From Acidocella aminolytica 101 = DSM 11237 (lineage in GTDB: Bacteria > Pseudomonadota > Alphaproteobacteria > Acetobacterales > Acetobacteraceae): a stretch of DNA of 62,626 bases. The notes beneath the pieces were generated by a model. It had not been told where the DNA came from and did not search any database. It saw only the letters and a list, made by a program, of their open reading frames with translations. The DNA is taken from contig NZ_FQVJ01000024.1 in NCBI RefSeq assembly GCF_900129125.1, forward strand, positions 1 to 62,626. Direction: 5' to 3'. How positions within the stretch are numbered: the stretch's first letter is position 1; each line of letters opens with the position of its first letter. Both the position numbers and the translations under genes were made by a program. Below, in pieces: positions 7,503-24,608 of this stretch.

Positions 7503-8081
7503 ATGGTCAAACGTCTGATGTCAAAACATCTCCTCCCGCATCGAATGACGCTTCTCGCCGGACTTCTAGCACTGCCAGCAATGGCGCTCGGCTCGCCCTC
7601 CGGCGTGATGGGACCGAAGAACGCGCCGAGTCCGGCTGATCAAGCCGCGCCGCCCGCATCGTTCATCAGCAATGGCAAGACCGTGGAACTGGAGGCATTC
7701 AAAGGCCACCCTGTCATGCTCTGGCAGGTTGCAACTTGGTGCGGCAGTTGTCGGGCTGGACTGCGCACCTTCGCTCATGAGAAGGCACTGATCGACAAGT
7801 CGGATATTCGGGTCATCGTCCTGCGCGACTACAAGAATGGCGGCTATCCGGGCATCGGCATCAAGAAATTCGCCGAGCAGACCGCCCCGAGTCTGATGCG
7901 TGATGCCCATTTCGTCTTCGGAGACGATACCAAAGCACTTTATGCGCTCTACAATCCACATCACTATGTCGATGTCTACGATCTGATCGGCACCGACAAC
8001 AAGATCCAGGCCGTCTCGTCCACACCTTCGGCAACGTTCGGCAAGATCAAGGCTTTCATCGCGTCGGAACCAAAATCATGA
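7503..8081 (+). CDS. Exported thioredoxin-like protein of the mer operon
   Basis: The protein has 192 residues. A basic N-terminus and hydrophobic segment (about 14-30) suggest export or membrane anchoring. A thioredoxin-like fold follows with WCGSC at 79-83. It lies 27 bases downstream of merA with its own AAGGAT site, and its stop overlaps the next start (ATGA at 8078-8081). Standard mer operons place merT and merP around here; neither is present. A role in binding or handing over Hg(II) through the CGSC pair, or in repairing Hg-damaged thiols, is inferred. Confidence 0.68.
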   Translation: MVKRLMSKHLLPHRMTLLAGLLALPAMALGSPSGVMGPKNAPSPADQAAPPASFISNGKTVELEAFKGHPVMLWQVATWCGSCRAGLRTFAHEKALIDKSDIRVIVLRDYKNGGYPGIGIKKFAEQTAPSLMRDAHFVFGDDTKALYALYNPHHYVDVYDLIGTDNKIQAVSSTPSATFGKIKAFIASEPKS

Positions 8082-8599
8082 TCGCGACAACGATCCAGAA
8101 TATCATCCAGATGCCGGTCGCGATCCGGCTTGCGCTGGGGGATCGGCGCACGCGGATCTGGGGCGCAGCGACCTTCCTGATCGGCCTTGGCTTCTATCTT
8201 CTGGTGCTGCCCGCAACCGATACCGGTGGAGCGATCGGACTGGTCTCTCTGCGCTTTCTTACCGTGGGTGAGGCTGGCCTGGCACTCATCATGGCGGCCC
8301 TGCTCGGCCTGACCACCGCGCTCGGGATCTACGGGTTGAAACAGGGTGCACACGTTACATCCGGCAAGACGATCCTGGGCGCGATCGTCGCGATCGTGCC
8401 AACACTTCTATGCTGCTCGCCAATTCTGCCTCTTGTAATTGCGACAATCGCCTCCGTACTGCCGGCGGCAGGAACATTGGGCCTGCCGATACAGGGTTTC
8501 ATCGCCACGCATGAAACCTGGCTCTACGCGATCGCAATTATCTTCATGGCCTGGGGGCTTTACGCCAACGCACGCCGCGCACTTTATTGCGCCTGCTGA
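8078..8599 (+). CDS. Membrane protein with intramembrane Cys-Cys pair, possible Hg(II) importer
   Basis: The protein has 173 residues with four predicted membrane segments. The third begins PTLLCCSPILPL, a vicinal Cys pair inside a helix, and the protein ends YCAC. MerT and MerC import Hg(II) through vicinal Cys in their first helices, but the rest of this sequence does not look like MerT, MerC or MerF. It is translationally coupled to the thioredoxin-like gene. It may replace MerT functionally; this is inference from the Cys pattern and location. Confidence 0.6.
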   Translation: MIATTIQNIIQMPVAIRLALGDRRTRIWGAATFLIGLGFYLLVLPATDTGGAIGLVSLRFLTVGEAGLALIMAALLGLTTALGIYGLKQGAHVTSGKTILGAIVAIVPTLLCCSPILPLVIATIASVLPAAGTLGLPIQGFIATHETWLYAIAIIFMAWGLYANARRALYCAC

Positions 8600-8657
8600 A
8601 CCGTTAAGGCCTTCTCTGGGCGACCAAGAGACAACACAAACATGACAGGAAGCCACT

Positions 8658-9251
8658 ATGCCTAGCCGGCGCAACATAATGGCCATCGCCGGCAGTCTCT
8701 TTACCGGCTTTTTGACGCTTCTCGGGTTCGGTCAGAAATCAGCCATCGCTCGGATTGCCGTTGATCCGCCTTCTTCGGAGGGCATGATGAATGGGATGAT
8801 GGGGCAAAGCATGTCCCACATGGACATGCACGGGATGATGTCTCGCGACAACATGATGGGGCCAATGCGGCTCGGTATGGAACTGTTCGAGCGGCATGCG
8901 GAAATCACCCGTGCGACTGATTATCTGCCAAACGGCATCATCGACACCACGGTGTCGAATAACCCGAAAACCGCCAGACTGATCCAAGCCCACGTAATCG
9001 AAATGTATGCTCGCCTCGCAGACAACCGCCCGTTTCCGTATCCGATGAGCAATAGCGTTCCGGCCATGTTTGCCAACAGCGCGCAATACCAGCGTAGCTA
9101 TAAGCTATTGCCGACCGGCATCCAGGTGACAGAAATCTCTGACGATCCCGAGATGGTCAAAGTGATCTATGCGCATGCCCGCGAACTCGACCGCTTCGCG
9201 AAAGAAGGTATGCCAGCGATGATGCGGGGCATGATGCGCAAAACCGGCTGA
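8658..9251 (+). CDS. Exported Met/His-rich protein
   Basis: The protein has 197 residues. An N-terminal hydrophobic segment preceded by RR (about 4-28) suggests export. Residues about 43-70 are rich in methionine and histidine (GMMNGMMGQSMSHMDMHGMM), a composition typical of periplasmic Cu(I)- or Ag(I)-binding proteins. A second short cluster MMRGMMRK closes the chain. It follows the mercury genes in the same direction after 58 bases. I do not recognise the family of the middle part. Confidence 0.65.
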   Translation: MPSRRNIMAIAGSLFTGFLTLLGFGQKSAIARIAVDPPSSEGMMNGMMGQSMSHMDMHGMMSRDNMMGPMRLGMELFERHAEITRATDYLPNGIIDTTVSNNPKTARLIQAHVIEMYARLADNRPFPYPMSNSVPAMFANSAQYQRSYKLLPTGIQVTEISDDPEMVKVIYAHARELDRFAKEGMPAMMRGMMRKTG

Positions 9252-9277
9252 TCGAAGAAAATACAGCCTGCCCACCC

Positions 9278-9394
9278 ATGAACTTCGTCCAATTTCAGCG
9301 GTTTGCAGCTCATTTGCCACATAGGGACGACGGCGTATACGGGTCGTGGGACCATGCCGGCGAGATCATCCCGACGATTATCACGGTACTCTAA
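9278..9394 (+). CDS. Very short open frame, doubtful
   Basis: An ATG opens a 38-codon frame ending [13 protein letters not shown]. No ribosome-binding site is visible, and the frame ends 4 bases into the convergent ATPase gene. It could be the 3' remnant of a longer gene. It is listed because it fills most of the gap 9252-9390, which otherwise shows nothing. Confidence 0.15.
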
Positions 9395-11826
9395 ATCGGC
9401 ATGGCCGGTGCGGCGCCAACTCCACCAACGGCGCCGAGGAAGAGGCTGGCGCGGCCATGCAGGGAGTTGATGAAGATCAGGGTTACGCTGGCAGCCATGG
9501 CGATCATCGCCCAGACCGGGTTGATCAGGCCGGTCGCGGCGAGCGGAATACCGACGCCGTTGAAGCAGAAAGCGAGCGCCACGTTCTGCACCATCTTGCG
9601 GTAACTGCGGACGCTGATCACCCGGGCCTGCGGCAAGAGGGCGAGTTCTGGCCGCATGATCACGATATCGGCGGCTTCGATCGCGATGTCGGTGCCGCTG
9701 CCCATGGCGATGCCGACATCTGCCTGCATCAGCGCCGGGGCGTCGTTGATACCGTCGCCAACCATGGCGACCTTGCCGTTGCGTTGCAGGTCACGGATCG
9801 CCGCTGCCTTGTCCTGCGGCAGAACCTCAGCGATCACCGTTTCGATTCCGGCCGAGGCAGCGATCTTTTTTGCGGCGGATGCATTGTCACCGGTGAGCAT
9901 GATGACGTTCAGACCTGCGGCGCGCAGAGTGTTGATGGCGTCCGCGGCGTCCGGCTTGAGGCGGTCGCCGAGGGCCAGCAGGCCGGTGAGCGTCCCGTTT
10001 TCCGCGGCGACGATGACGGTCCGTCCGGCTTCCTGCTCGGTGCGGATATCGGCCTCGACGGGTGAGAGATCGATCCCGCTCTCGCGGAGGAAGGTTGGGC
10101 TGCCGACCAGCACTTCCGCGCCGTGGTGCCGAGCCGAGATGCCCTTGCCGGGCGTGGCCTGAAACTCCGCAACCGCGGGCAGATCAAGCTCGCGTTCGAA
10201 GGCAGCACCGACGATTGCCCTGGCCAGCGGATGCTCTGAGCCGGCCTCGACCGCTGCCACCAGCCCGAGCAGACTTGCCTCGTCGAGGCGGCCGACGGCC
10301 CGGATCGCCTGGAGAACGGGCTTGCCCTCGGTCAGCGTGCCGGTCTTGTCCAGCACAACGTGGCTGACCTGACGGAAAGTCTGGAACGCCTCGCCGGTAC
10401 GCATCAGGATCCCCCGATCCGCGGCCTCGCCGGCACCACGGACGATCGACAGCGGCGCCGAGATGCCGACCGCGCAAGGATAGCCCATGACCAGCACCGT
10501 GAGCGCGGCGAACACCGCGCGATCGACCAACGGATGGCCGATAACGAGCGTGGGGACGAGGAGCCAGAGGATCAATGCTCCCGTCGCGATCGCGAGCACG
10601 ATGGGCGTGTAGACGCGCAGGAGGCGATCGACGAGATGCAGCACGCCCGGCTTCAGCGCCCGCGCATCCTCGACCTGCCGGATCACCCGGCGCAAAAAGC
10701 TCTCCTCGCCGATCGCCGTGACCCGAACGAGCAACGTGCCGGTGCCGTTGATCGCGCCGCCGACTACCGCGTCACCGACGGCTTTCTCGACGGGCAGGGG
10801 TTCGCCGGTGACCAGAGCCTGATCGATCGCGGAACGCCCATCAATCACCGTTCCATCGACGGGGATCCGCTCGCCGGGGCGGATGCGTGCCAGATCGCCG
10901 ATCACGACATCACTGGCCGGTATCTCGATTTCGGCGCCGTCGCGAACCACGCGGGCAAGTTCCGGTTGCAGGTCGAGCAGCCGCTTGACCGCCTGGGAAC
11001 TGCGGGTCTTCACGATCAGCGACAGCCACTCCGAGAAGATATGATAGGTGCAGACCATGGTCGCGACCGCGAAGAAGGATGCGGTTGGATAGCCGGGTTG
11101 ATTGATCGCCAGCCCGATCGCGCCGCCTGCCAGCCCAGCGAAGGCGCCGATTTCGAGCAGCACATGCTGGTTGAGAATACCGCGCCGAAGCGCCTGGAAC
11201 GCCATGACCTGAATATGCCGGGCGACGGCGAACACCAGGATGATGGCGAACAGGGCCGTGATCCAGGGCGTGATGCTGCCAAGCGCGCCGGTAGCGTGCA
11301 GACCGAACAGGATCATCGTCAGGATACCAAGGCCAGCAGCAACCGCCGAAGCGATCAGGCGCCCGCTGGGGCGGAGCACGATGAAGACGAAGCCGGTCAA
11401 GGTTGCGAACATCAGGGCGGCGAGCGCCAGACCCCAGGCCGAGCCGGTCCTTGCGATCAGAGCCAGTGATGCGAGGCTGAGGCAAACCGCGGCCACAAAG
11501 CGGCGCGCCTCGCGCACGAGATCACGTTCCTCCTCCTCGAAGCTGCGCAGCCTGGTCGGATCAGAAATCGTGTAGCCGATATCTCGCAGCGTCTGGATCA
11601 GGCGCGCTGGATCGGCGCGATCAGGATCGAACTCGACCAGCGCCTGCTCATGGGTAAGGCTGACCGCGACCTTTTCGACCCCCGGCAGTCGGCCGAGCGC
11701 CTGTTCGATCGTGCCGGTACAGAGCGAGCAGTGCAGCCCGCCGATCCGGGTGCGGATTTTTCGCCGGCCGGGCCGGCTGCCGGGTTCCTCGGTCCAGAAA
11801 CGTTCCGTGGATGCTGTGGCGATCAT
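9391..11826 (-). CDS. Heavy-metal P1B-type ATPase with YPC metal site
   Basis: The protein has 811 residues. An N-terminal HMA-like domain has CSLC at about 33-36. The catalytic core has DKTGTLTEG near 494 and GDGINDAP near 687. The intramembrane motif reads MGYPCAVG near 447, so the usual CPC is YPC. Downstream helices also depart from the Cu(I) pattern: FNGVGIP instead of YNVIGIP, and no MxxSS. Metal specificity is therefore likely to differ from CopA. It is last in an operon with a MerR-HMA fusion and a CcdA-like protein, starting a few bases after the latter's stop. Confidence 0.85.
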
Positions 11827-12543: not shown

Positions 12544-12759
12544 CTACTTCACCGCAGTCACCCGGTAACCGGGCCGCTCGATCGTCGCTGTGAGACGGTT
12601 CTCATCAATGATCGCGGGATCGAACAGCACCCGTGCGCTACCCGGAGCATGCCCGACCTGGACCGCCTTCACGCCGGCTTCATGCTCGAGAAGTCCGCGC
12701 ACGGTTTCGGCGCAGCCTTCACAGTGCATGCCGTCTATCGCGAAAGTCGTTGTTTTCAT
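12544..12759 (-). CDS. Possible internal product: stand-alone HMA metallochaperone
   Basis: The ATG at 12757-12759 lies in frame inside the MerR-HMA gene. It has GGAAGGAG about nine bases upstream and opens a 71-residue HMA protein with GMHCEGC. That is the size of MerP/CopZ-type chaperones. The strong internal site suggests either dual products or a recent fusion of two adjacent genes. Confidence 0.45.
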   Translation of the reverse strand: MKTTTFAIDGMHCEGCAETVRGLLEHEAGVKAVQVGHAPGSARVLFDPAIIDENRLTATIERPGYRVTAVK

Positions 12760-13227
12760 GGTGGATACTCCTTCCGGTTGGCGTTGCTCAGTCGGATCAG
12801 CTGGCGATGGAGCTGCCTCCCGCGCAATCGGATGTTCGATGGCATCGAGGATCGTGCAGGCGCCGAGCGAGCCCCGGCTGGGGCAAGTAGCGATCAGAGC
12901 GTCGAGCGCCGCGCCGATCCGCTCAAGCCGCGCGATCTTGATCCGCACATCCTCGCGACGGGCGACGGCGCGGCTGCGGACGTCCGCGCAATCGGCCGAC
13001 GGATCTGCGCGAAGGTCGAGCAGTTCGGCAATCTCCGCGAGGGTGAAGCCCAGCGATTGCGCTTCACGGATGAAGCGCAGCCGCGCGATGGTCTCTTCAG
13101 GGTAATGTCGTGGGCCATGTCCGGGACGGGCGGGATGCGCGATCAGCCCGCGTCGTTCATAGAAGCGGATCGTTTCGACATTGACTTCGGCGGCACGGGC
13201 GGCGGCCGCTATAGTGCGGATGCGCAT
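12544..13227 (-). CDS. MerR-family regulator fused to an HMA metal-binding domain
   Basis: The protein has 227 residues. Residues 1-115 form a MerR helix-turn-helix plus dimerisation helix, with Cys at 80, 115 and 124 as in the Hg/Cd/Pb sensors. After a linker, an HMA domain (about 157-227) has GMHCEGC. Codon 157 is an ATG preceded by GGAAGGAG at proper distance (separate entry), so free HMA protein may be made as well. The promoter directly upstream on the same strand has a MerR-type 19-bp spacer, so the regulator would control its own operon with the CcdA-like and ATPase genes. Confidence 0.82.
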   Translation of the reverse strand: MRIRTIAAAARAAEVNVETIRFYERRGLIAHPARPGHGPRHYPEETIARLRFIREAQSLGFTLAEIAELLDLRADPSADCADVRSRAVARREDVRIKIARLERIGAALDALIATCPSRGSLGACTILDAIEHPIAREAAPSPADPTEQRQPEGVSTMKTTTFAIDGMHCEGCAETVRGLLEHEAGVKAVQVGHAPGSARVLFDPAIIDENRLTATIERPGYRVTAVK

Positions 13228-13575: not shown

Positions 13576-13863
13576 TCAGGCCGCATTTTCCTGAAAGCGG
13601 CGCACTGATGGCTGCTTGTGTTGTCGCGCAAGCCAAAGGTCATAGTTTACCTGCATTCCAAGCCATGCCTGCGCAGTGCTCACGCCAGCCTGTTCAAGCC
13701 GGATCGCCAGATCAGGGCTAATGGCCGCCTTGGCGTTCAACACACGCGACAACGCAGCGCGGGACATAGCCAGCCTCTGGGCCGCCTCAGTAACGGAAAG
13801 CCCCAGATCGCTTATGACATCCTCTCTGAGCAGTTCGCCAGGGTGTGGTGGATTGTGCATCAT
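13576..13863 (-). CDS. higA: HigA-family antitoxin
   Basis: The protein has 95 residues. It starts with the family hallmark HPGELLREDV, followed by an XRE helix-turn-helix (VTEAAQRLAMSRAALSRVLN). It lies 11 bases after higB in the same operon, giving the toxin-first order usual for higBA. It should neutralise HigB and repress the promoter upstream of higB. Confidence 0.9.
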   Translation of the reverse strand: MMHNPPHPGELLREDVISDLGLSVTEAAQRLAMSRAALSRVLNAKAAISPDLAIRLEQAGVSTAQAWLGMQVNYDLWLARQHKQPSVRRFQENAA

Positions 13864-13874
13864 TCTGGCTTCTC

Positions 13875-14153
13875 CTAGTGGTAGTCTTGATAATTCACCA
13901 ACTCAACGCCCGCCTCAACGAACCAAAACGTCACTCTCCAATTCCCGTTAACCCAAACGGACCAGTGTCCGGCAAGGTCACCTTTCAGTGGGTGCAGCTT
14001 AAACGCCGGGATGTTCATATCCTGCGGCGTCTGCGCCACATCCAAAAGGCCAAGAATGCGCTTCAACTTGCCAGCCTGTGCGGCTTGAATCCCGCGCATG
14101 GAGCCCGTGCGGTAAAATGCCTCCAGACCCTTATGTCGGAAACTCAAAATCAT
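13875..14153 (-). CDS. higB: HigB/RelE-family toxin
   Basis: The protein has 92 residues with the RelE-superfamily pattern of HigB: FRHKGLEAFYRTG near the N-terminus, a central LHPLKGDLAGHWSVWVNGNW, and the VNYQDYH end with the conserved tyrosine and histidine. These proteins cleave ribosome-bound mRNA. Gene order and spacing with higA are standard. A -10-like TATAGT within TTGTATAGTGAC is centred about 30 bases upstream (14176-14187, reading minus). Confidence 0.9.
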   Translation of the reverse strand: MILSFRHKGLEAFYRTGSMRGIQAAQAGKLKRILGLLDVAQTPQDMNIPAFKLHPLKGDLAGHWSVWVNGNWRVTFWFVEAGVELVNYQDYH

Positions 14154-14245: not shown

Positions 14246-14308
14246 TGTCCAAAACCTTGCTTGACGGCTTTCAGGACATGCCCACATAATGGGCATAGGT
14301 TTTGGACA
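14246..14308. repeat. res-like site of the adjacent resolvase
   Basis: TGTCCAAAACCT at 14246-14257 is inverted as AGGTTTTGGACA at 14297-14308. Between them lies a second inverted repeat, ATGCCC...GGGCAT (14277-14295). Nested inverted repeats immediately upstream of a serine recombinase are typical of resolution sites. Recombination here would resolve plasmid multimers or cointegrates. Confidence 0.55.
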
Positions 14309-14319
14309 GTATCAGCCCC

Positions 14320-14886
14320 ATGACGTCGCGCGTTTTCCTATATGCCCGCGTCTCGACGATCGAGCAGACCGCCGAGAATCAGATCACTGAGGTCAGGGCC
14401 GCCGGTTTCGCCATCCGGCCGAATCGGATCATCACGGAAACGATCTCGGGAAGCGTCGCCGCCCGGCAACGGCCCGAGTTTAGCCGCCTTCTCGATCGGC
14501 TCGAAGAAGGAGACGTGCTTGTCGTAACAAAGCTTGATCGCCTTGGCCGAAATGCTCTCGATATCCGCTCGACGGTCGATGCCCTCGCCGGGATCGGGGT
14601 AAAACTCCATTGCCTAGCGCTCGGTGGTGTCGATCTTACCAGCTCGGCCGGCCGGATGACGATGCAGGTGATCGCGGCCGTGGCAGAGTTCGAGCGAGAC
14701 TTGTTGGTCGAACGCACACAAGCCGGGTTAGTCCGGGCCAAAGCAAACGGCAGGTCGATCGGTCGGCCAGCCTCACTGACAGAAGAGCAAAAAGCGGAAA
14801 TCCGCACTGCACGGGACGCGGGCGCCTCGATCTCGTCCCTCGCCCGCACTTACCGCGTCAGCCGACAGACCATCAACCGCGCGTAA
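14320..14886 (+). CDS. Serine recombinase, resolvase/invertase family
   Basis: The protein has 188 residues. The catalytic domain begins FLYARVST with the nucleophilic serine, followed by LDRLGRNALDI. A C-terminal helix-turn-helix ends ASISSLARTYRVSRQTINRA. The ATG at 14320 lies just beyond the res-like repeats. Its 3' end overlaps the convergent GIY-YIG gene by 14 bases. The size matches Tn3-type resolvases, but no transposase is present, so a role in multimer resolution is more likely than transposition. Confidence 0.9.
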   Translation: MTSRVFLYARVSTIEQTAENQITEVRAAGFAIRPNRIITETISGSVAARQRPEFSRLLDRLEEGDVLVVTKLDRLGRNALDIRSTVDALAGIGVKLHCLALGGVDLTSSAGRMTMQVIAAVAEFERDLLVERTQAGLVRAKANGRSIGRPASLTEEQKAEIRTARDAGASISSLARTYRVSRQTINRA

Positions 14887-16096
14887 CCTCCCCTCTACGC
14901 TCCACGAGAGCGGCACTCTTCGGGTCATAGACATAGCCGCTGATAGTGCTGTCCTTGATCTTCTCCACTGCATCGTCGATCACAAACAGCGGCACCAAGA
15001 ACCATTCACGCGGGATAACGGGATTGCCGAACCTGTCCTTGATCTCGATATCGAGCCTGGCCGGATCGAAGATGCGATGGATCAGGCTTTCCAGCTTTGT
15101 GCGACCTAGATTGTAGAGCTTGTAGGTCGCCACAATCTCCACGTCCGCCAATAAGAAGGTCGGGTCCAGCTTGGCGTTGGCGATGCGCTTTGCGACATCG
15201 CCGCCGGTGACGCCGATCTTGTGAACGAGGTTGCGATTGGCGGCGACGATGGGGTTATCCGACTTGCTGCGTAGGACATAAATGGTGCCGCTGCCCAGGT
15301 CGTCTACCTCACTTTCGCTGGCGAACAATGGCCCGGCGCTCGGCTCCGACACGCGGCGGCTCACCTCATCCTTATAGAGGGCACGTTGAAGAGAGCGGAG
15401 CAATAGATTGCTCTCAGTGCCATTGGAATAGATGACACGAAGGCGGGCGTCACTTTCACCATTGGGCGCTTTGAAGGTTTCTCCTACTTCGGCGACGTAG
15501 GCGATCTGACCGCCAAGTATGAAAAACTCCCCGGCCTTGATATCAGTTTTCAGGAAGCCTGCTTCCTTCCGAATGGGCTGGGTGATGCGTATGCCCCTAT
15601 CGAGGTCGCTCTGCACAGCGTTGAAGATCGGCTTAAAGCGATCGAAGTCCTCACACCGTTCTCGGGTAGCGATTTCCTCGGCCGCGCGTTTGTCGGCGGC
15701 AGAACGGACATACCGCAATTCAGTGATGTCCTTCGAGGTGCCAGACTCCACACCTAGCTGGGCCAGCAATTCGTCGTCGCTGATGTCATCGGCCGCGTCA
15801 TCTGGGGCGGGTGTCGCGCTCGCCAAAAGTCCCTGATGGTCAAACGGCGCAAGCAAGGATCGGCAATCCGCTTGCACACGCAGCCGGTCAAGACGTACGG
15901 CATAAAGCCTTTCGAAGATATCGTGCTCCTCGCCGTGCTGCGGTGCGCGGCCATGGGCTGCAACAAAACGCTGAATCTCCTCGAAGCCGGCGATGATCCG
16001 CTCCTCACGCGGCGTCCGGGCGGTGTCTTTCTTAGCCTCCACCTCGACGCCAAGTTCAGTCAGCAACGCATCGTCTTCGTCGGTAAACTTAGACAC
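14873..16096 (-). CDS. GIY-YIG nuclease-domain protein (defence operon, gene 5)
   Basis: The protein has 407 residues. The N-terminal 180 residues are acidic with two similar segments (DDALLTELGVEVE and DDELLAQLGVESG). A C-terminal GIY-YIG-like domain starts TIYVLRSKSDNP near 269 and continues HKIGVTGGDV near 290, followed by KLESLIHRIF. The arrangement resembles the T5orf172/MUG113 branch. It starts eight bases inside the end of the helicase gene. As the only recognisable DNA nuclease in the operon, it is the probable effector; cleavage activity is inferred. Confidence 0.72.
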   Translation of the reverse strand: MSKFTDEDDALLTELGVEVEAKKDTARTPREERIIAGFEEIQRFVAAHGRAPQHGEEHDIFERLYAVRLDRLRVQADCRSLLAPFDHQGLLASATPAPDDAADDISDDELLAQLGVESGTSKDITELRYVRSAADKRAAEEIATRERCEDFDRFKPIFNAVQSDLDRGIRITQPIRKEAGFLKTDIKAGEFFILGGQIAYVAEVGETFKAPNGESDARLRVIYSNGTESNLLLRSLQRALYKDEVSRRVSEPSAGPLFASESEVDDLGSGTIYVLRSKSDNPIVAANRNLVHKIGVTGGDVAKRIANAKLDPTFLLADVEIVATYKLYNLGRTKLESLIHRIFDPARLDIEIKDRFGNPVIPREWFLVPLFVIDDAVEKIKDSTISGYVYDPKSAALVERRGEVTRG

Positions 16097-18152
16097 GCGC
16101 GGCCTCCGCTTTCATGCGGGCGAGGAAGGCGACGCCTTCAGCCATGCGCTTTTCCCAGGCGTCGGGTGATGTGATGGATGGCAGGCGTCCGCGCTCCTGC
16201 TTGAACTTCAACGCCCGCTTCGCCAACTCGCGCGCTTCCTCCGCGGTCAAGTTGACACGCTTGGCCCCAATCACGGCGGCAACCTGCTTCAAGCTATCCT
16301 CGGTCATCGCTTTGGACAGAATGGCGTAGGCTTCGCCGAACGGATTGATGCGGTCGATCAGGTCGATGTCCAGCTCGCGCACGTCCATCGCGAACCTGCG
16401 GACGCCTTCGATAAACGCGGTGTTCGCGCTTTTCTCGCCGTCAATTTCCTCCCCACCCAATGCGGCTTCCTTGGCCTTCTGCGTCAGGTTCAGGGCGGCG
16501 ACGGCGTGCTGGCGCACAGCCTCCTGATCCTCCTCGTCCAGCTCCGGGTATTTGTCCTTGATGATCTTGCCCATACGCAGCTGGGTCAGCTCCTCGGGCA
16601 CAAGCTCCTGGTCGAACAGGCCGCGCTCGATGGTGGTTTTGTCCTGCACGAAAGCGGCGATTACCTCGTTCAAGTCCTGCTGACAGATGCGGGTCGCTTC
16701 CTCGCTCTTGGGTTCGGTCAGCCCCTTTATCTCGATCTGGAAGGTGCCGCGCTCCTCATTGAAGCCGACATTACACCTGTCCGTCTGATAGCCGCCCTCG
16801 CCGTAATCAAAGCCCTCCACTGGCCCGCTAGCCGGGTTCTTGGGCTTAAACTCGAACCGGGGCGCAAGCACCTGCTCCATGAGCAAGCTTGCGGCGATGG
16901 CCTTCAACGTGTCATTCACCGCCTCGGTCACGGCTTCCTCGGAAGCGTCCGGTTCGGCGATCAGGTTGGTGAAGCGGGCGCGGGTCTTGCCCGGGGCGTC
17001 GCGCGTGGCGCGGCCGATGATCTGCACGATTTCAGTCAGGCTGGAACGATAGCCGACGGTCAGCGCATGCTCGCACCAAATCCAGTCGAAGCCTTCTTTC
17101 GCCATGCCGAGCGCGATGATGATGTCCACATGATCGCGGTTGTTCTTCTGCGCCGGGTCTTTCAATGCGGCGGAAACCCGGTCGCGCCTGGCTCCATCGT
17201 CGTCCACAAGGTCGGCGATCCGCAGCACCTTGCCTTCGGGCGTCTTGACCAACTGGAAGCCGGTGGCGTCGTCGGCGCCCTGCCAATCGCCCAGCGCCGA
17301 CAGGATATGCTCCACCTCCCTGATCTTGTCCTTCGTGCTTTCGCGGGAGTTGACGCTGGGAATGTGGATGATGGTCTTCTCGGCGGGGTCCAGAACGCTG
17401 AGAATGTCGTCGGCGTAGGAGCCGGAATAGAAGAAATAGCCGATGTCGAGCTGCTTGAGATACTGATAGCCGTTCAACTGCTCATAATAGGTATAGGTCA
17501 CGGTATCGAACTTGGCCTCGTCCTGCGGGGCCAGCACGGCATCGGCGTCGCCCCGGAAGTAGCTGCCGGTCATGGCGACGATATGCACCTTGTCGCGAGC
17601 GACGAAGGCCCCAAGGTGCAGCCCCAGCTTGTTGTCGGGGTTGACGGAAACGTGGTGGAACTCGTCCACCGCGATCAGGCGGTTGTCGAACGCCTCGACA
17701 CCGAACTTGTCCACGGCGAAGCGGAAGGTGGCATGGGTGCAGACCAGCACCTTGTCATCGCTTTGCAGGAACGCTTCGACCGAATTGACCTTGCCGCCAT
17801 TGTCCGCGCCGGGGGCGTCGCAGAGGTTCCATTTCGGTTCGACATGCCAGTCGGCCCAAAAGCCGAACTGGCTTAACAGCTCGTCATGGAAGCTCGCGCC
17901 GATACTCCTCTCCGGCACGACGATGATCGCCTGTTTCACCCCTTGATTGGCGAGCTTGTCGAGCGCAATGAACATGAGCGCGCGGCTCTTGCCAGATGCG
18001 GGCGGCGATTTGATGAGAAGATATTGTTCGCCACGCTTTTCATAGGCGCGCTCCTGCATCGGGCGCATCCCGAGGGCATTGGCCTTGGTGGAGCTGCCGT
18101 TCCGGGCATAGGAAACGGAGACGGAGGGAACGGATTTGGCTTCTGGCTTCAT
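16089..18152 (-). CDS. Superfamily 2 helicase (defence operon, gene 4)
   Basis: The protein has 687 residues. Walker A PPASGKS lies at 50-56, the DEAD-like box is DEFHH near 159, motif III-like MTGSYFRGD follows, and motif VI is QIIGRATRD near 384. The C-terminal 250 residues have no family I recognise. The ATG at 18152 overlaps the preceding stop (ATGA), so longer upstream starts are rejected. The domain resembles the translocating motor of type I and III restriction systems, which would fit cooperation with the methylase and nuclease encoded on either side. Confidence 0.82.
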   Translation of the reverse strand: MKPEAKSVPSVSVSYARNGSSTKANALGMRPMQERAYEKRGEQYLLIKSPPASGKSRALMFIALDKLANQGVKQAIIVVPERSIGASFHDELLSQFGFWADWHVEPKWNLCDAPGADNGGKVNSVEAFLQSDDKVLVCTHATFRFAVDKFGVEAFDNRLIAVDEFHHVSVNPDNKLGLHLGAFVARDKVHIVAMTGSYFRGDADAVLAPQDEAKFDTVTYTYYEQLNGYQYLKQLDIGYFFYSGSYADDILSVLDPAEKTIIHIPSVNSRESTKDKIREVEHILSALGDWQGADDATGFQLVKTPEGKVLRIADLVDDDGARRDRVSAALKDPAQKNNRDHVDIIIALGMAKEGFDWIWCEHALTVGYRSSLTEIVQIIGRATRDAPGKTRARFTNLIAEPDASEEAVTEAVNDTLKAIAASLLMEQVLAPRFEFKPKNPASGPVEGFDYGEGGYQTDRCNVGFNEERGTFQIEIKGLTEPKSEEATRICQQDLNEVIAAFVQDKTTIERGLFDQELVPEELTQLRMGKIIKDKYPELDEEDQEAVRQHAVAALNLTQKAKEAALGGEEIDGEKSANTAFIEGVRRFAMDVRELDIDLIDRINPFGEAYAILSKAMTEDSLKQVAAVIGAKRVNLTAEEARELAKRALKFKQERGRLPSITSPDAWEKRMAEGVAFLARMKAEAARV

Positions 18153-18982
18153 TTTCTTTCCCCCGCAACGCTGGCAAGCGCCGCCTTTAGCACCTGGAAG
18201 CAGACTTTCGCCGTGTGCTCGTCCGGTGTGAAGCCGGATACCATTTGTTCGTATGGATGGATGTAGTTGCGAAAGTCCCGAAGGCCGTGACTGAACTTCT
18301 TCACGTCCGGCTTCAGCAACCCAGCCTCGCACGCGACATCTATGAATTGCGCGAGGCTCCATTCGTGAAAACGCTTCACGCTGCCGTCAACGGCCTTCGG
18401 ACTGGCCGAAGCCCGATTGAAGTGCGCTGGTTCCTTCTGCGCCGCCCCGAGAAGGACGGCTTCGAGAACGCTGCCGCACAGGAAGATGGTGGAGAGATAC
18501 GCGCCCGCGCCCATCGCCGCCCGCGCTTCGTTTAGGCGGCTCTCGATGATCGGCACGGCCATCGCCTCAATCGGCAGTTTCTGGATGTTGGGAATCGAAA
18601 ATTCGCTATGCAGAAAATCGTCAACGGTCTGGGTCGGTTTTGCAGGCGCGCGCACCCCTGAAAGACGCGCGATGATGCCGCGCGACTTTTCGAGAACGGA
18701 CGCCTCGGTGTCCCGATTGTTCAGGGTGCAGTCGGCCTCATAGGCATCCAGCATCTCCCCCAGCACTTTCCCGACCAGAACATCAGGCTCCTGTTCCCAG
18801 AAAGCCCGCATTTTCTTGGCCTTGGATGTTCCGTAAGTCTGATACTTCTGGCTGTGAATGTTGACCCGGTGGCGATTGAAAAATTCGCCGAAGGCCGCAT
18901 CGGAATAGTCCAGGACATAGCCGCTTTGCATCCCGAGCAATCTCTCAAAATAGCGTTTTTCGATGTCGGTGAGGCTGCTCAT
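18149..18982 (-). CDS. AbiJ-like N-terminal domain plus HEPN-like domain (defence operon, gene 3)
   Basis: The protein has 277 residues. Its first 90 residues (YVLDYSDAAFGEFF, then YGTSKAKKMRAFWEQEPD) resemble the AbiJ N-terminal domains found in abortive-infection proteins. The C-terminal half contains RDFRNYIH near 238, which fits the Rx4-6H motif of HEPN ribonucleases. It overlaps both neighbours by four bases (ATGA at each end). An RNase or sensor subunit that acts when restriction fails is possible; both assignments are from memory of the families. Confidence 0.55.
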   Translation of the reverse strand: MSSLTDIEKRYFERLLGMQSGYVLDYSDAAFGEFFNRHRVNIHSQKYQTYGTSKAKKMRAFWEQEPDVLVGKVLGEMLDAYEADCTLNNRDTEASVLEKSRGIIARLSGVRAPAKPTQTVDDFLHSEFSIPNIQKLPIEAMAVPIIESRLNEARAAMGAGAYLSTIFLCGSVLEAVLLGAAQKEPAHFNRASASPKAVDGSVKRFHEWSLAQFIDVACEAGLLKPDVKKFSHGLRDFRNYIHPYEQMVSGFTPDEHTAKVCFQVLKAALASVAGERK

Positions 18983-21759
18983 GCCGCTCCCACCTTTCGT
19001 TTCTTCGCTGAGCCTGCCCCGGCGGTCATCTTCGTATATAGCTCGAATAGCTTTTCCAGTCGCTCGGTGTCGTTGCGGAAGTGACGGCCGATATAGATGC
19101 GCTCCAACACTTCGTCGTTGCGCTCATGGGCGTCGCGCAGATCGGCGGGCATGTCGTCTGGGTCGTAAAGGTCGGCGATGGTCGCCGGGAAATGCGCCTC
19201 GCGCGCCAACAGGATGTCCTCGGCGCAACGGGTTAGGTCGGCCTTGTTCTTCTCGGTCAGCGTGGGAACGGGAAAGGTGTTCCAGCCAAGCGTGTTGGAA
19301 TAACGGATGCGTGTCTCAAGCTGCCCGCAGACGGTGGTGATCCAAACAAGATGTAGCCGCGAGGCAATCAGCGCGAGATTCCAAAGGGGGGCGTCGTATA
19401 AGGCGAATGCCAGGTTCGTTAGAGTGGTATGCGCATCAACGATTCCAGCGGGCAAATACGGGCGACGCTCGGACGAAACGCTAGGCACGACGATTGCGTG
19501 GGAACTTCCGATGCGCATCAATTTGAGCTGATGGGGACGCTTGGCGAGAATAGTTCGTGCGCCCTTATCAGGGCTTGCCAACCGTAGTGCCCGGACCGCT
19601 TCAATACGCTCATGTAAGGCCGGAATCTGTTGCGCCTCATCAAGATTCTTGTCTTCTATCCAGATGCAAAATCGTAATCCGCCATTGATAAAATCCTGTG
19701 ATCCATAGATACAACGAATAAATCTGTCCCTCTGCGCATTGGTCAAGCCAATCGCATTGAGCTCGTCTCTGCTCAACAACAAGTGGCCGCCATCGCTCGG
19801 CTTGTTGCCAAACTCCATGATACCGAGAGCTGAAATGGGATTGTTACTCTTCTCAACAATTACGCGCGCGCCAACGGTCAAGTAAGGCGTAATTGACGCG
19901 CCTTCGCGCAGAACAACGTGGCCGTCCTCCCGATGTTCATACAGCCGCCGCAGCGCATTTCTTGGGGCACCAATGCCGACCACGGCCACCGTGACACCCG
20001 CGTTGTAGCTGGCCAAGTTCGCCCACTTAAACGAAGTGTAGGCGAAAAGAATGTCGCAGCCCGCGCTGTACAAGATAGGCCATAGGATCGGCACTGACTG
20101 TCCTTGGCAAATGGAGTTGGTACTGACAAAACTCGCGGCACCACCCGCATTGGCTATGTAGTCAGCCGCTTTGATGAACCAGCCTGCTACATAATCCAAA
20201 AAGCCCGCCGAACTGGTACGGCCATTTACCACGCTGCGAATATCGGCCTTCTGCTCGACAGTCTGCCAAGTGTTACCCAAATAAGGTGGATTCCCGCAGA
20301 TATACGTTTCCCCACCCTCATTCTCGAAGTCGATCTGGGGCTGATCGAGCGGGGTGTGAAACAGGTCATCGGCATGGTGCTTCACGCCGGTCCCGGTCGG
20401 CGGACAGATGCTCAGCCAGTCAAGTCGAAGCGCGTTGCCGCAGGTGATCCAGTTTTCTTTGTTGAGCGGCAGGAACTCGGCCAGCGCCAGCTTCTGCCCG
20501 CGATACAGCACGTCCGCTTGGTACTCGGCGATGATGAGCGCCAGCCGCGCGACCTCGGCGGGGAAGTCGCGCAGTTCGATGCCGCGAAAATTGGTCAGCG
20601 GGATCTCGGATGCGCGGTCGGCTTCCCCGCGCCGTTTGTTGATCTCGGCCTCGATAGCCCGCATTTCCTTGTAGGCGATGACGAGGAAATTGCCGCTGCC
20701 GCATGCAGGATCGAACACCCTGATCCGCGCCATGCGCCGCCGCAGGTTCAGCAGCATCCGGCTGTTGTCGCCGGCTTCCTCAAGCCGTGCGCGCAGGTCG
20801 TCGAGGAACAGTGGGTTCAGGACTTTGAGGATGTTTGGAACGCTGGTGTAGTGCATTCCCAGCGCGCCGCGCTCATCATCGTCTGCCACGGCCTGGATCA
20901 TCGAGCCGAAAATGTCGGGGTTGATCTTCCTCCAGTCGAGGCCGCCTATATGGAGAAGGTAGGAGCGCGCGATCCTACTGAAGCGCGGCACAGCTGGGCT
21001 ACCGGAGAACAGGCCGCCGTTCACATAAGGGAACACATCCGCCCAGCGCGGCAGCTTCGCGATCGCCCGCTGGGCGATGGGCGTGTTCATGGCGCGGAAC
21101 AGTTCGCCAATCACCTCATGGGTGTTGGACGAGTCCCGCGCGCTCATCTGCTCGATGGTGGCAGTGAACAGACCCTCACCGTTGAAGATGTCGGTGTCCT
21201 CCGCGAAGAAGCAGAAGATCAGCCGGGCCATGAAATGGTTCATGTCGGGGCGGCGGTCGGCCGTGCCCCAGTCGGGGTTATCCTTCAACAACTCCACATA
21301 CAGTCGGTTCAGGCGGCTGGTGGCGCGAATATCGAACGAGCTTTCGCGCACCTGCTTGACGGTGGTGATCCCGGCCAGCGGCAGGAAGAAGCCGAAACGG
21401 TTGGGGAAGTCGGCATAGGCGCAGGCAACCGTCTCGCCGGACTCCAACTCCTCGGCCTCGAAACCGTCGCCATCGGTGGCGAGGATAAATCTCGGCTTGG
21501 CCTTCGCCGTGGCGGGACTAGTACGAAGCCCGGCAAGGGTCTGCGTTACCGCGCCGTGTGCGGCGACAGCGATATGGATGTTGCTCCGCTGGAGGACGCC
21601 GCCCGGCAGATCGGATGCGTTGGTCGATCCGGTGCGCAGCCGTTTGATCGTAGTGTCCTTGTTCCCGAACGCGGCCAGGAACTGATACGGAAACTCGGCT
21701 GGGTCGAAGGGCCTTTCCGCAAGCTCGCTCACGGCTTCCTCAATCTCAACCGCGTTCAT
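18979..21759 (-). CDS. MmeI-like adenine-specific DNA methyltransferase (defence operon, gene 2)
   Basis: The protein has 926 residues. SAM-binding motif I FDPACGSGNFL lies near 353 and catalytic motif IV GNPPY near 490, so N6-adenine methylation is expected. The C-terminal 350 residues would be the target-recognition region. The N-terminal layout resembles type IIL (MmeI-like) enzymes, but where those carry a D...ExK nuclease site this protein has LPGGVLQRSNIHIAVAAHG, with no acidic pair or lysine. It may therefore methylate only, leaving cleavage to a partner. It overlaps the HTH gene by four bases. Confidence 0.82.
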   Translation of the reverse strand: MNAVEIEEAVSELAERPFDPAEFPYQFLAAFGNKDTTIKRLRTGSTNASDLPGGVLQRSNIHIAVAAHGAVTQTLAGLRTSPATAKAKPRFILATDGDGFEAEELESGETVACAYADFPNRFGFFLPLAGITTVKQVRESSFDIRATSRLNRLYVELLKDNPDWGTADRRPDMNHFMARLIFCFFAEDTDIFNGEGLFTATIEQMSARDSSNTHEVIGELFRAMNTPIAQRAIAKLPRWADVFPYVNGGLFSGSPAVPRFSRIARSYLLHIGGLDWRKINPDIFGSMIQAVADDDERGALGMHYTSVPNILKVLNPLFLDDLRARLEEAGDNSRMLLNLRRRMARIRVFDPACGSGNFLVIAYKEMRAIEAEINKRRGEADRASEIPLTNFRGIELRDFPAEVARLALIIAEYQADVLYRGQKLALAEFLPLNKENWITCGNALRLDWLSICPPTGTGVKHHADDLFHTPLDQPQIDFENEGGETYICGNPPYLGNTWQTVEQKADIRSVVNGRTSSAGFLDYVAGWFIKAADYIANAGGAASFVSTNSICQGQSVPILWPILYSAGCDILFAYTSFKWANLASYNAGVTVAVVGIGAPRNALRRLYEHREDGHVVLREGASITPYLTVGARVIVEKSNNPISALGIMEFGNKPSDGGHLLLSRDELNAIGLTNAQRDRFIRCIYGSQDFINGGLRFCIWIEDKNLDEAQQIPALHERIEAVRALRLASPDKGARTILAKRPHQLKLMRIGSSHAIVVPSVSSERRPYLPAGIVDAHTTLTNLAFALYDAPLWNLALIASRLHLVWITTVCGQLETRIRYSNTLGWNTFPVPTLTEKNKADLTRCAEDILLAREAHFPATIADLYDPDDMPADLRDAHERNDEVLERIYIGRHFRNDTERLEKLFELYTKMTAGAGSAKKRKVGAA

Positions 21760-22049
21760 GACTCGCCGCTCTCTTCACCTGCGACGGCGTGGAAAGGCTC
21801 GACTTCGATCTCGTCCGCTCGCCGCATGACCTCGGCCAGTTCGTGGTCGAGTTGCCGGATCAGCCATTCGCGAGCTGGCGTGCCGAACGCCTTTTCCAGA
21901 CGGACGGCCATCTCGGGCGAAATACCAGACCGGGCGTTCAGCAGATTGCTAAGGGTCTGCCGATCCACACCAAGAATACGGGCGGCGTCAGTGACGCTCA
22001 GCCCGTTCTTTTCAAGGCAATCTTGTCGGACCATCGTTCCTGGGTGCAT
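21756..22049 (-). CDS. HigA-family HTH regulator heading the defence operon
   Basis: The protein has 97 residues. It begins MHPGTMVRQDCLEKNGLSV and contains an XRE helix-turn-helix (VTDAARILGVDRQTLSNLLN). No toxin gene accompanies it; instead its stop overlaps the methylase start. It probably acts as a controller protein that delays expression of the operon, as C-proteins do in restriction-modification systems. A palindrome at 22073-22090, 24 bases upstream, is the likely operator. Confidence 0.75.
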   Translation of the reverse strand: MHPGTMVRQDCLEKNGLSVTDAARILGVDRQTLSNLLNARSGISPEMAVRLEKAFGTPAREWLIRQLDHELAEVMRRADEIEVEPFHAVAGEESGES

Positions 22050-22167: not shown

Positions 22168-23229
22168 TTACCGTCCCGCCGTCGCACGTCGTGCCTGCCG
22201 CTCCTGCTCGGGCTGGTCGGCTCGTTCCGCCCGCCGGATTTCCGCGCCGCTCTCGGCCGCACGCTGCCAGTAGCCGCGCGCTTGGTCGCCCGCCTGGCTG
22301 TCAGCCCGGCCGGTGATCTGCCCTGCCTTCTGCTCGGCACGCAGCGCCATCAGATACCCGGAAATCTTCTCGGCATCCGCAGCCGCCCGGAATATCTCGC
22401 GCGGCTCTTGCTGCAAGGCTTTGATCCAGCTTCCGACATACGCCGCATGCTGGCCCGGATCATGGCCGATCCCCAGCTTGTCCGCGATCATCAGCGAGGC
22501 AATCTCCGCCCTTAACTCCTCCCGCGCATAGGCTTCTGATCCGAACGGTGTGCCAAGGTCAGGCCGGTTCAGCCGCGAGGGGTGGCCTGTCGCGTGCCCC
22601 AGCTCATGCAGGGCCGTGCTGTAAAACCGATCCGCCGTCTTGAACTGCTCGCGCTCCGGCATCGTGACCCGATCCTGTGCCACGGTGTAAAAGGCCCGGT
22701 CGCCGGGCCGGTAGATGATTGGCACCCCGGAATGGGTCATGATCTGCTCGGCCGCCGCGTGCCGTTCCCACTCCGCCAAAGCGGGCCGGGCCTCGATCTT
22801 CGGCATGCCAGCGATCTGCTCGGCATTGAACACCACGGCCGAAAACACGCGCGGGCGTTCCAGCTCGACGCTGCGATAAATCTGGTTGCCCTCGGCATCC
22901 TTCACCGGCCGGCCTTGCTCGTCCTTCACCGGCACCCGGTCAAACTTCTTGAAATACTGGATCAGCGTGCCCTTTTCGCCCTTCATCACCTGGGCATCGA
23001 GGCTCTGTGCCTGCTTGTAGGTGGTCCAACGCGGATCGCTGTAGCCCTTCGCCTCAGCCACCGTCATCAGCCAGATTGCGTTGCCGCCCTGGTAATCCTT
23101 GCCGGTGGTCGCGTTGTAGGGAATGAACCGGAGGCCGCTGGGCTCCCACGGTTTCACCCAGGGCGCGGTGCCATCCTCCAACTGCTTGACGATCGAGGCG
23201 GCAACCGTCTGGGCATAATCACCGGCCAT
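22168..23229 (-). CDS. ardC: ArdC-like ssDNA-binding antirestriction protein
   Basis: The protein has 353 residues. The N-terminal ArdC domain (about 1-130) contains PWVKPWEPSG and GKDYQGGNAIWL. A zincin metallopeptidase domain follows with HELGHATGH near 210. The last 60 residues are a low-complexity Ala/Arg/Gln tail that includes YWQRAAESGA. The ATG at 23229 overlaps the small upstream gene by 11 bases. ArdC protects incoming plasmid DNA from host restriction during conjugation. It is clustered with maintenance genes. Confidence 0.88.
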   Translation of the reverse strand: MAGDYAQTVAASIVKQLEDGTAPWVKPWEPSGLRFIPYNATTGKDYQGGNAIWLMTVAEAKGYSDPRWTTYKQAQSLDAQVMKGEKGTLIQYFKKFDRVPVKDEQGRPVKDAEGNQIYRSVELERPRVFSAVVFNAEQIAGMPKIEARPALAEWERHAAAEQIMTHSGVPIIYRPGDRAFYTVAQDRVTMPEREQFKTADRFYSTALHELGHATGHPSRLNRPDLGTPFGSEAYAREELRAEIASLMIADKLGIGHDPGQHAAYVGSWIKALQQEPREIFRAAADAEKISGYLMALRAEQKAGQITGRADSQAGDQARGYWQRAAESGAEIRRAERADQPEQERQARRATAGR

Positions 23230-23407
23230 CGGTCGCCTCGTTCGTGTTCTCCACGTCCGCATTGGACTCCCAGGCGTCGGCTTCATCGAGTGCGGTTTCC
23301 TCGACCAGCCCCAGCCGATCGACATCGGCCGGATCGATCTCGACCATGAAGCCCGGCCGCATCAGATCGGCCAGATCGCGCGAGATGATTGGTTTCTTCG
23401 GTTTCAT
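23219..23407 (-). CDS. Small hypothetical protein upstream of ardC
   Basis: The protein has 62 residues, starting MKPKKPIISRDLADLMRPG and then strongly acidic. The ATG at 23407 follows a purine-rich stretch (GGAGGAGGAGAG). It overlaps ardC by 11 bases, so the two are cotranslated. No known motif is visible. A small acidic protein next to an antirestriction gene could itself be a DNA mimic, which is speculative. Confidence 0.55.
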   Translation of the reverse strand: MKPKKPIISRDLADLMRPGFMVEIDPADVDRLGLVEETALDEADAWESNADVENTNEATDGR

Positions 23408-23958: not shown

Positions 23959-24369
23959 TCAACTATTCATCCCGGCTTTGCGAATATCCGTCTTGGTAAA
24001 ATCATCGCCTTTGAACAGCAGCGCCGCGCGGTAGGATTTGGCGGCGCCATAGGCAAAGCAATCGCCCATGTTCAAGGCGGCCGGATGCCGCCCCTTCCCG
24101 AAATCGGCATAAGCCTGGATCGCCAGATCATACTCACGCTCACCGAGAGAAATGACCTCGATGCCGAGGGCACTCATAAAGCTCTTCACCTTTTGCCGGG
24201 CGCCGTCCATCGAAAGCCCGAAGCTGCGGCAGAGCCCGGCTGTGGCCTCCCACATGGCAACCGGTGAGACGAGACGGGTGCGTTCCTGGGCCAGAAGATC
24301 CGCCAACATATCCGCATCCTCCTCGCCGGCGATCATGGCGATCAGGGCAGAGGCATCGATGAAGATCAT
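23959..24369 (-). CDS. vapC: VapC-family PIN-domain toxin
   Basis: The protein has 136 residues. It begins MIFIDASALIAMIAGE with the first catalytic Asp. Further PIN acidic residues lie in MWEATAGL, in NMGDCFAYGAA and in GDDFTKTDI. These toxins cleave tRNA or rRNA. The ATG overlaps the vapB stop by four bases. Confidence 0.92.
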   Translation of the reverse strand: MIFIDASALIAMIAGEEDADMLADLLAQERTRLVSPVAMWEATAGLCRSFGLSMDGARQKVKSFMSALGIEVISLGEREYDLAIQAYADFGKGRHPAALNMGDCFAYGAAKSYRAALLFKGDDFTKTDIRKAGMNS

Positions 24370-24608
24370 TCCCCCTCCCCAGACAGTTCATCGAAAAATG
24401 CCTTGTCTGCCTTCAAGCCTGTAGGCGGCGGCAGCGGATTGGCCTCGCGCCACTCGCGCAGGCGCTCGCGCAAGGGCTTTGCTTCGCGGGTCCGGTCAAG
24501 CTCGGCCTGCACGGCGATCCGCACGGCATCCTGTTTGGTTAGGCCGCGCTCTTTCGCCAGCTTGGCGACAAGCTCGGCGGTCGCATCATCGCGGATGTAA
24601 AGCGGCAT
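24366..24608 (-). CDS. vapB: VapB-family antitoxin
   Basis: The protein has 80 residues. It starts MPLYIRDDATAELVAKLAKE with a ribbon-helix-helix-type DNA-binding region. The C-terminal tail (AFFDELSGEGE) would wrap the toxin. It precedes vapC with a four-base overlap, the standard order. It should autorepress its promoter in the AT-rich stretch just upstream (24609-24665). Confidence 0.9.
   Translation of the reverse strand: MPLYIRDDATAELVAKLAKERGLTKQDAVRIAVQAELDRTREAKPLRERLREWREANPLPPPTGLKADKAFFDELSGEGE

Follow-up and report, generated by a model that had tools for sequence, protein, structure and literature searches.

The locus described here is located in a stretch of 62,626 nucleotides from Acidocella aminolytica 101 = DSM 11237 (contig NZ_FQVJ01000024.1, positions 1 to 62,626; in the following the window), and raises the question whether an operon that combines a DNA methylase, a helicase, a GIY-YIG protein and a HEPN-like protein with a helix-turn-helix (HTH) regulator constitutes a restriction system of a novel kind or a known system with an additional gene. 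The initial annotation had favoured an undescribed restriction system with a built-in abortive-infection arm. We find that the core of the operon is of the published DnmA-YeeB-YeeC kind, while the position between methylase and helicase, a slot occupied by various genes in different genomes, looks new on the grounds of sequence comparison. Our reading, to which we assign a probability of approximately 0.7, is that the operon encodes a Type I-like restriction-modification system of the DnmA-YeeB-YeeC kind that harbours a HEPN effector, which in its exchangeable slot would provide a second, abortive layer of defence.

The five minus-strand genes extend from position 22049 to 14873 (Table 1) and overlap, as read from the DNA, by 4, 4, 4 and 8 base pairs (bp) at successive junctions, in agreement with the overlaps of 4-8 bases annotated before. 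The HTH/methylase, methylase/277-amino acid (aa) protein and 277-aa protein/helicase junctions each contain the sequence ATGA, while the GIY-YIG gene, with the longest overlap, begins with GTG. The start of the helicase gene was placed at the ATG at 18152, as a 4-bp overlap results and relatives match from the first residues of this product; the longest open reading frame (ORF), starting at 18362, was rejected. All five genes are open, and in the host genome the methylase and the 277-aa protein each have one match, the copy in the window.

The methylase displays the five Pfam domains of MmeI in order (MmeI_N, hel, Mtase, TRD and C) over its whole length and matches, from end to end, the PADLOC model PDLC03598 ('type IIG'). 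While the type IIL enzyme MmeI, with which these domains are shared, cuts alone, the window methylase lacks the E-x-K motif in its N-terminal part and has a separate helicase and GIY-YIG gene downstream. There is no E-x-K in its first 80 residues and no conserved E-x-K across 13 relatives. The phmmer match to MmeI (5hr4) begins at residue 80, aligned to MmeI residue 100, and a constant offset puts the nuclease motif of MmeI, which we take to be D70, E80 and K82, on D50, N60 and H62 in a stretch outside the tool alignment. All 13 of 13 relatives possess these three residues, with an N-x-H at the expected motif site, the spacing of D50 being off by at least one residue in most of them. Judged from these alignments, the nuclease motif is missing family-wide, in agreement with the published description of DnmA; as D50, N60 and H62 are nevertheless invariant, the N-terminal domain seems to be retained for another task, and, with the motif missing, the GIY-YIG protein would have to do the cutting. 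This protein matches PF13455 (MUG113) and PF10544 (T5orf172) above cut-off, conserves YVLRS, HKiGVT, an Arg, a Glu and EWF in 79 aligned rows and is probably a DNA nuclease. The helicase, with DEAD and ResIII matches in Pfam, possesses complete superfamily 2 (SF2) motifs, with SPPASGKS, DEFHH and QIIGRATRD conserved in 83 aligned rows. A weak match to the pseudomurein-binding repeat just below cut-off (helicase residues ~633-660) may account for the label 'pseudomurein-binding repeat-containing protein' of plasmid relatives, which is probably a misnomer.

By its protein families, gene order and the annotation of a plasmid relative the methylase-helicase-GIY-YIG core is of the DnmA-YeeB-YeeC kind. 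One plasmid relative with 69.5% helicase identity is annotated as 'DNA helicase restriction/modification system component YeeB' and lies between DNA methyltransferase and GIY-YIG genes. According to two publications, DnmA is 38% identical to MmeI without its endonuclease motif and makes N6-methyladenine (m6A) at GACGAG, and dnmA is followed by the conserved yeeB (SF2 helicase) and yeeC (T5orf172/GIY-YIG), for which a Type I-like system has been suggested (PMC7261158, PMC9973331). The Bacillus subtilis operon shares with the window the three families, their order and strand and an MmeI-related methylase without endonuclease motif; additions in the window are the HigA-like regulator and, lodged between methylase and helicase, the HEPN gene. 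The families named initially for the methylase, translocase, probable cutter and HEPN-like protein are thus supported by profiles and motifs, while novelty of the system as a whole is contradicted by the published core and the full-length 'type IIG' match. That the operon matches none of bacteriophage exclusion (BREX), defence island system associated with restriction-modification (DISARM) or Dnd, as also annotated, stands, there being no full profile match to any of them. BREX was rejected on only partial PglX matches of the methylase (22-23 bits versus NCBIfam cut-offs of 400-900, weak in PADLOC), DISARM on only partial DrmMI matches of the methylase with no other Drm model matched, and Dnd on weak partial helicase matches (dnd_restrict_1, 17.2 bits versus 600; PbeA, E 1e-6 over 75 residues).

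The gene order, the recurrence of which the initial annotation gave as a point to check, does recur and is thus more than a chance arrangement. A helicase scan of the genome_contigs collection gave at least 573 relatives, the best 80 of which were kept, so that close relatives are over-represented. Methylase, helicase and GIY-YIG matches are found in 76 of these 80 loci (L043 and L097 are without a methylase match, L095 and L098 without a GIY-YIG match). Methylase, HEPN, helicase and GIY-YIG genes are directly adjacent in six of the 80 (L020, L026, L031, L034, L061 and L096), with further genes in between in L030, and the five-gene order including the HTH gene occurs in two (L020 and L026). 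Helicase identity among the 80 kept loci is 81-97%, although the record titles name Alpha-, Beta-, Gamma- and deltaproteobacteria, Bacillota and Acidobacteriota, among others; this likeness across phyla we take as recent horizontal transfer. The helicase is present in 17 of 385 sampled genomes of the class (the window's own counted) and matches 260 of 72,556 plasmid records at E 1e-30, 153 of which cover at least 80% of its length.

What varies in these operons is the junction between methylase and helicase. In a survey into which 105 loci were entered and from which seven were left out for want of a methylase, junctions were measured in 98 loci (78 from genome_contigs, 18 viral contigs, L120 and L133), and the slot was scored as occupied when more than 150 bp extra separated the two genes. 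It is occupied in 45 of 98 loci (37 of 78 in genome_contigs alone; 44 of 97 without L120, which had entered via the HEPN search), while the helicase-GIY-YIG junction carries an insert in none of 96, with a largest gap of 24 bp. Five of the 45 gaps hold no convincing gene (L040, L058, L093, L180 and L188), and for L035 and L049 the slot gene was seen in only one of two slot surveys. In the class sample, chosen by lineage and not by score, nine of 17 non-window loci are occupied and eight empty, the occupied L195 and L198 having no ORF of 90 aa.

The occupants are diverse. The HEPN gene fills the slot in eight of the 98 loci, in addition to the window and the partial contig L147; otherwise RhuM (seven), an L041-type helical protein (six), an L064-type protein (five), AlbA_2, a family which we take to be DUF1016 and a 137-aa family (three each), and a 208-aa family, a PLD-like protein (named by eye) and an L053-type protein (two each) are found. 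Single occupants include DUF262/GmrSD-like, BrnT, CoiA-like and T5orf172-like proteins, the last below its cut-off. The slot RhuM protein of L030 matches the PADLOC candidate model PDC-S05, that of L049 PDC-S02 and that of L086, partially, PDC-M55C/HEC-05. HEC and PDC candidates, TgvAB and DarTG2 have been described as effectors nested in BREX, Hma and type I systems, DarTG2 and TgvAB inside type I operons (PMC12839542, PMC11411939, PMC12255303). As here, these effectors lie inside a host defence operon; a slot in DnmA-YeeB-YeeC is not mentioned in the accessible parts of these papers. Those of the DnmA study mention an uncharacterised family up- or downstream of dnmA, and no slot (PMC9973331). 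In the open-access literature we found no description of a slot with changing effectors for DnmA-YeeB-YeeC operons.

Eleven close pairs compared at the DNA level show what is exchanged. Identities of 70-97% are seen over the front part of the methylase, over its final ~85-135 codons and over the block of helicase and GIY-YIG genes; the slot fails to align, as for the most part does the recognition domain. The target recognition domain, mostly missing from the blastn matches of close pairs, is of low conservation in 69 aligned methylases and hypervariable between close relatives. Close operon pairs that differ in the slot gene (L031/L034 versus L032/L036; L055 versus L064) differ in the recognition domain too. 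Within this steady frame, specificity and effector look like two separately exchanged cassettes.

The occupant in the window, the 277-aa protein, has no match in Pfam, NCBIfam, PADLOC or PHROG. Its Rx6H motif and predicted fold identify a C-terminal HEPN-like domain. R235, R238 and H242 are conserved in 16 of 17 aligned sequences and N239 in all 17, and in a separate comparison all four are invariant in 14; the sole exception to Rx6H, L118, matches only the N-terminal half. The model is all-helical, and the best solved-structure matches of the predicted fold are HEPN proteins, which would make the protein a putative ribonuclease. Of the label AbiJ/HEPN given initially the second half is supported by motif and fold and the first is not, as no Pfam family is matched at E 0.1, a missing profile match that leaves kinship possible. 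Compared with HEPN-MNT, the HEPN domain of AbiA and Csm6, the protein has another N-terminal domain; no MNT antitoxin gene is seen beside its gene, and no CARF or polymerase domain was found.

Relatives of this protein also occur in other restriction operons. Two overlapping samples of genomes were searched, 398 with the window protein and 376 with the L031 protein, and gene contexts were counted for the ten genomes in which a match reached at least E 1e-20. Five are inside restriction operons, four outside and one at a contig edge (G019). Two of the five are of DnmA type (G000 and G394) and three of type I, with the orders hsdM-hsdS-HEPN-hsdR (G507), hsdM-hsdS-HEPN followed by an IrrE-like gene, an ORF judged PIN-like by eye and hsdR as far as a run of N (G097), and a HEPN fragment, an IrrE-like gene (by eye) and the start of hsdR (G288). 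In G404, its congener G497, G084 and G250, the gene in the last having an internal stop, neither inspection by eye nor tblastn with the window's five proteins revealed restriction genes in the DNA retrieved around the HEPN gene. Weaker matches were excluded from the count in 10 of 15 genomes for the window query and six of 12 for the L031 query, and those of their surroundings that were inspected show no methylase or helicase nearby.

The location just after hsdS, and inside a restriction operon in general, resembles that of prrC. PrrC consists of an N-terminal ATPase domain fused to a nuclease, and this nuclease belongs to the HEPN superfamily. The prrC gene is embedded in a type I locus, and its product is activated upon inhibition of EcoprrI (PMC12707154). 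By analogy, the restriction complex might keep the HEPN ribonuclease silent and free it when a phage protein blocks restriction. The similar position, the shared superfamily and the occurrence of the same protein in type I and DnmA-type operons argue for such a guard; nevertheless, no PrrC-like ATPase module was found in the 277-residue all-helical model or by Pfam family, the restriction type is another one, intact copies also stand free, and TgvAB acts independently of the restriction activity of HsdR (PMC12839542, PMC11411939, PMC12255303), which weighs against restriction control of HEPN. We regard this mode of triggering as tentative and clearly short of an even chance.

Several observations speak against the reading of the operon as an active restriction system with an embedded, exchangeable effector. 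The intact HEPN relatives L122, L123 and L149 lie outside any restriction operon seen, so that the protein does not need a restriction complex. The HEPN gene might consequently be an independent abortive-infection module that shares only promoter and mobility with the operon, without cross-talk, an alternative that concerns the trigger only. Among the 40 listed of 83 plasmid records most match only approximately residues 1-107, often as 'abortive infection family protein', and in viral contigs the HEPN half is joined to a different N-terminus, several copies lying beside phage genes, a distribution that points to a sensor of its own. Yet inserts are seen at a single junction, with start-stop overlaps, although a hitch-hiker might show no preference between the two junctions, and the protein is also encoded immediately downstream of hsdS in a different type of restriction operon. 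Such autonomy appears plausible, if a little short of an even chance, and about as likely as a coupling of HEPN to restriction.

The structural evidence has its weak points as well. The HEPN model has a predicted template modelling score (pTM) of 0.54 with a predicted local distance difference test (pLDDT) below 50 at motif residues 239-242, a Foldseek search with it gave no match at E ≤0.001, and the modelling of a second slot family did not establish HEPN for it. The low confidence at the motif would accommodate a structural or regulatory subunit without nuclease activity. Rx6H is, though, kept across the relatives, and the gene is absent from most operons, so that it is not a needed subunit; as many other genes are found in the same slot, the role of a fixed subunit, as assigned initially, is not borne out, and we consider the non-nuclease alternative improbable.

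Turnover of the slot is, furthermore, not unconstrained. In a FastTree phylogeny of 99 helicases, in which 32 of the 95 inner branches are open, the full slot state requires 41 changes, at the low end of 200 label shuffles (mean 44.8, range 41-46), and RhuM requires three versus five to seven, so that RhuM looks mostly inherited. Occupied versus empty requires 32 changes (shuffles mean 33.1, range 25-39) and presence of HEPN seven (mean 8.7, range 6-9). Slot exchange hence appears to be frequent, not free.

Finally, in B. subtilis deletion of dnmA left transformation unchanged and deletions of dnmA, yeeB and yeeC left sensitivity to three phages unchanged (PMC7261158, PMC9973331), and phage genomes contain the DnmA site no more rarely than expected (PMC9973331); activity of the family is thus not general. 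The operon might accordingly be a relic in which, as proposed for B. subtilis, the methylase alone works and slot genes are passengers. This is unlikely for the window, where the five genes are open and the helicase and GIY-YIG motifs are conserved in the alignments. In addition, Vibrio crassostreae became more sensitive to some phages when its homologues of dnmA and yeeB were deleted, and YeeB and YeeC of B. subtilis lack stretches near the C-terminus (PMC9973331). The family is common, and its description as a relic is based on a single species.

The preferred reading, a restriction-modification system with an embedded HEPN effector, would operate as follows. The methylase would mark one asymmetric chromosomal site; at an unmarked site methylase and helicase may act as a Type I-like translocating complex, with the GIY-YIG protein cutting the DNA. 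The recognition domain cassette would set the specificity and the slot cassette the second response, the two being exchanged separately. The HEPN ribonuclease, co-produced with the complex, would stop the cell once an infection passes restriction, triggered either by loss or inhibition of the restriction complex, as in the guard model, or by a phage signal sensed by its own N-terminal domain. The abortive arm proposed initially fits this scheme, in which we infer the HEPN activity and its coupling to restriction.

The HEPN gene and its relatives have further companions. An IrrE/M78 peptidase gene lies between HEPN and hsdR or a DnmA-type helicase gene in L148 (6317-7474), L152 (1838-3040, by eye) and L120 (9703-10797), and is possibly a regulator that travels with the HEPN gene. 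In L117 (Prevotella, 7701-10012) a relative of the HEPN half is directly 5' of an ORF that by eye looks caspase-like. HEPN proteins that carry a different N-terminus adjoin terminase-like ORFs (by eye) of the viral contigs L160, L164 and L165 and possibly represent prophage-carried superinfection defence.

With respect to control, the HTH protein scores 74.7 bits with TIGR02607 (cut-off 47.7) and matches HTH_3 in Pfam, and is probably the operon repressor. The HigA-type controller annotated initially thus holds for the family, but not as a partnership or a constant companion: no HigB toxin gene lies beside it, the next gene being that of the methylase, and it is found next to the methylase in only 10 of 87 scored relatives. 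The complete HigBA pair nearby was rejected as operon controller, as it has its own separate HigA. The adjoining resolvase, proposed before as a helper in mobilisation, is not a conserved neighbour and was rejected as a member of the system, a 66% identical relative being located only in L053, ~1.2 kb past the GIY-YIG gene, with all others at most 42%. On the other side, an anti-restriction gene stands beside the restriction operon, in a stretch ~92% identical to Acidiphilium plasmids; operon and ArdC region may reside on a plasmid or mobile element.

Table 1. Features of the operon and its neighbourhood in the window (position 1 is the first nucleotide of the contig)
Feature	Coordinates	Strand	Basis or remark
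HTH regulator, HigA family, 97 aa	21756..22049	-	TIGR02607, HTH_3, 4-bp overlap with methylase
MmeI-like m6A DNA methylase, DnmA/YeeA type, 926 aa, without E-x-K nuclease motif	18979..21759	-	Pfam, PADLOC, phmmer, alignments
Methylase target recognition domain, residues 631-834	19258..19869	-	PF20466, low conservation
277-aa protein in methylase/helicase slot, N-terminal helical and C-terminal HEPN-like domain	18149..18982	-	17-relative alignment, model and fold searches, slot survey
HEPN motif R235-D-F-R-N-Y-I-H242 (Rx6H)	18257..18280	-	Conservation among relatives
SF2 helicase/translocase, YeeB type, 687 aa	16089..18152	-	DEAD, ResIII, conserved motifs
GIY-YIG (MUG113/T5orf172) protein, YeeC type, 407 aa, predicted DNA nuclease	14873..16096	-	PF13455, PF10544
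Serine resolvase	14302-14886	+	Convergent with operon, shares 14 bp with GIY-YIG gene 3' end
Complete HigBA toxin-antitoxin pair	13576-14153	-	Beyond resolvase
MerR regulator fused to heavy-metal-associated (HMA) domain	12544-13227	-	
ArdC-type anti-restriction gene	22168-23325	-	Directly upstream of operon
PIN toxin and PSK_trans_fac (Rv0623-like) partner, VapBC-like pair	23959-24608	-	

Beyond the window, DnmA-YeeB-YeeC could represent a widespread mobile restriction chassis with two plug-in sites, for target recognition and for a suicide effector, in which the methylase-helicase complex restrains or fires slot proteins of diverse kinds and one cassette of which, HEPN, also serves type I systems, a generalisation that we consider rather unlikely at present. 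If true, an empty slot might help to explain the null phenotype of B. subtilis, where yeeB directly follows dnmA (PMC7261158, PMC9973331). The natural pairs that differ in the slot gene make the effect of each insert testable in one chassis. The slot yields effector candidates without a Pfam match, namely the L041-type, L064-type and 137-aa families, and with one HEPN protein tied to two restriction types, shared control of suicide effectors becomes testable.
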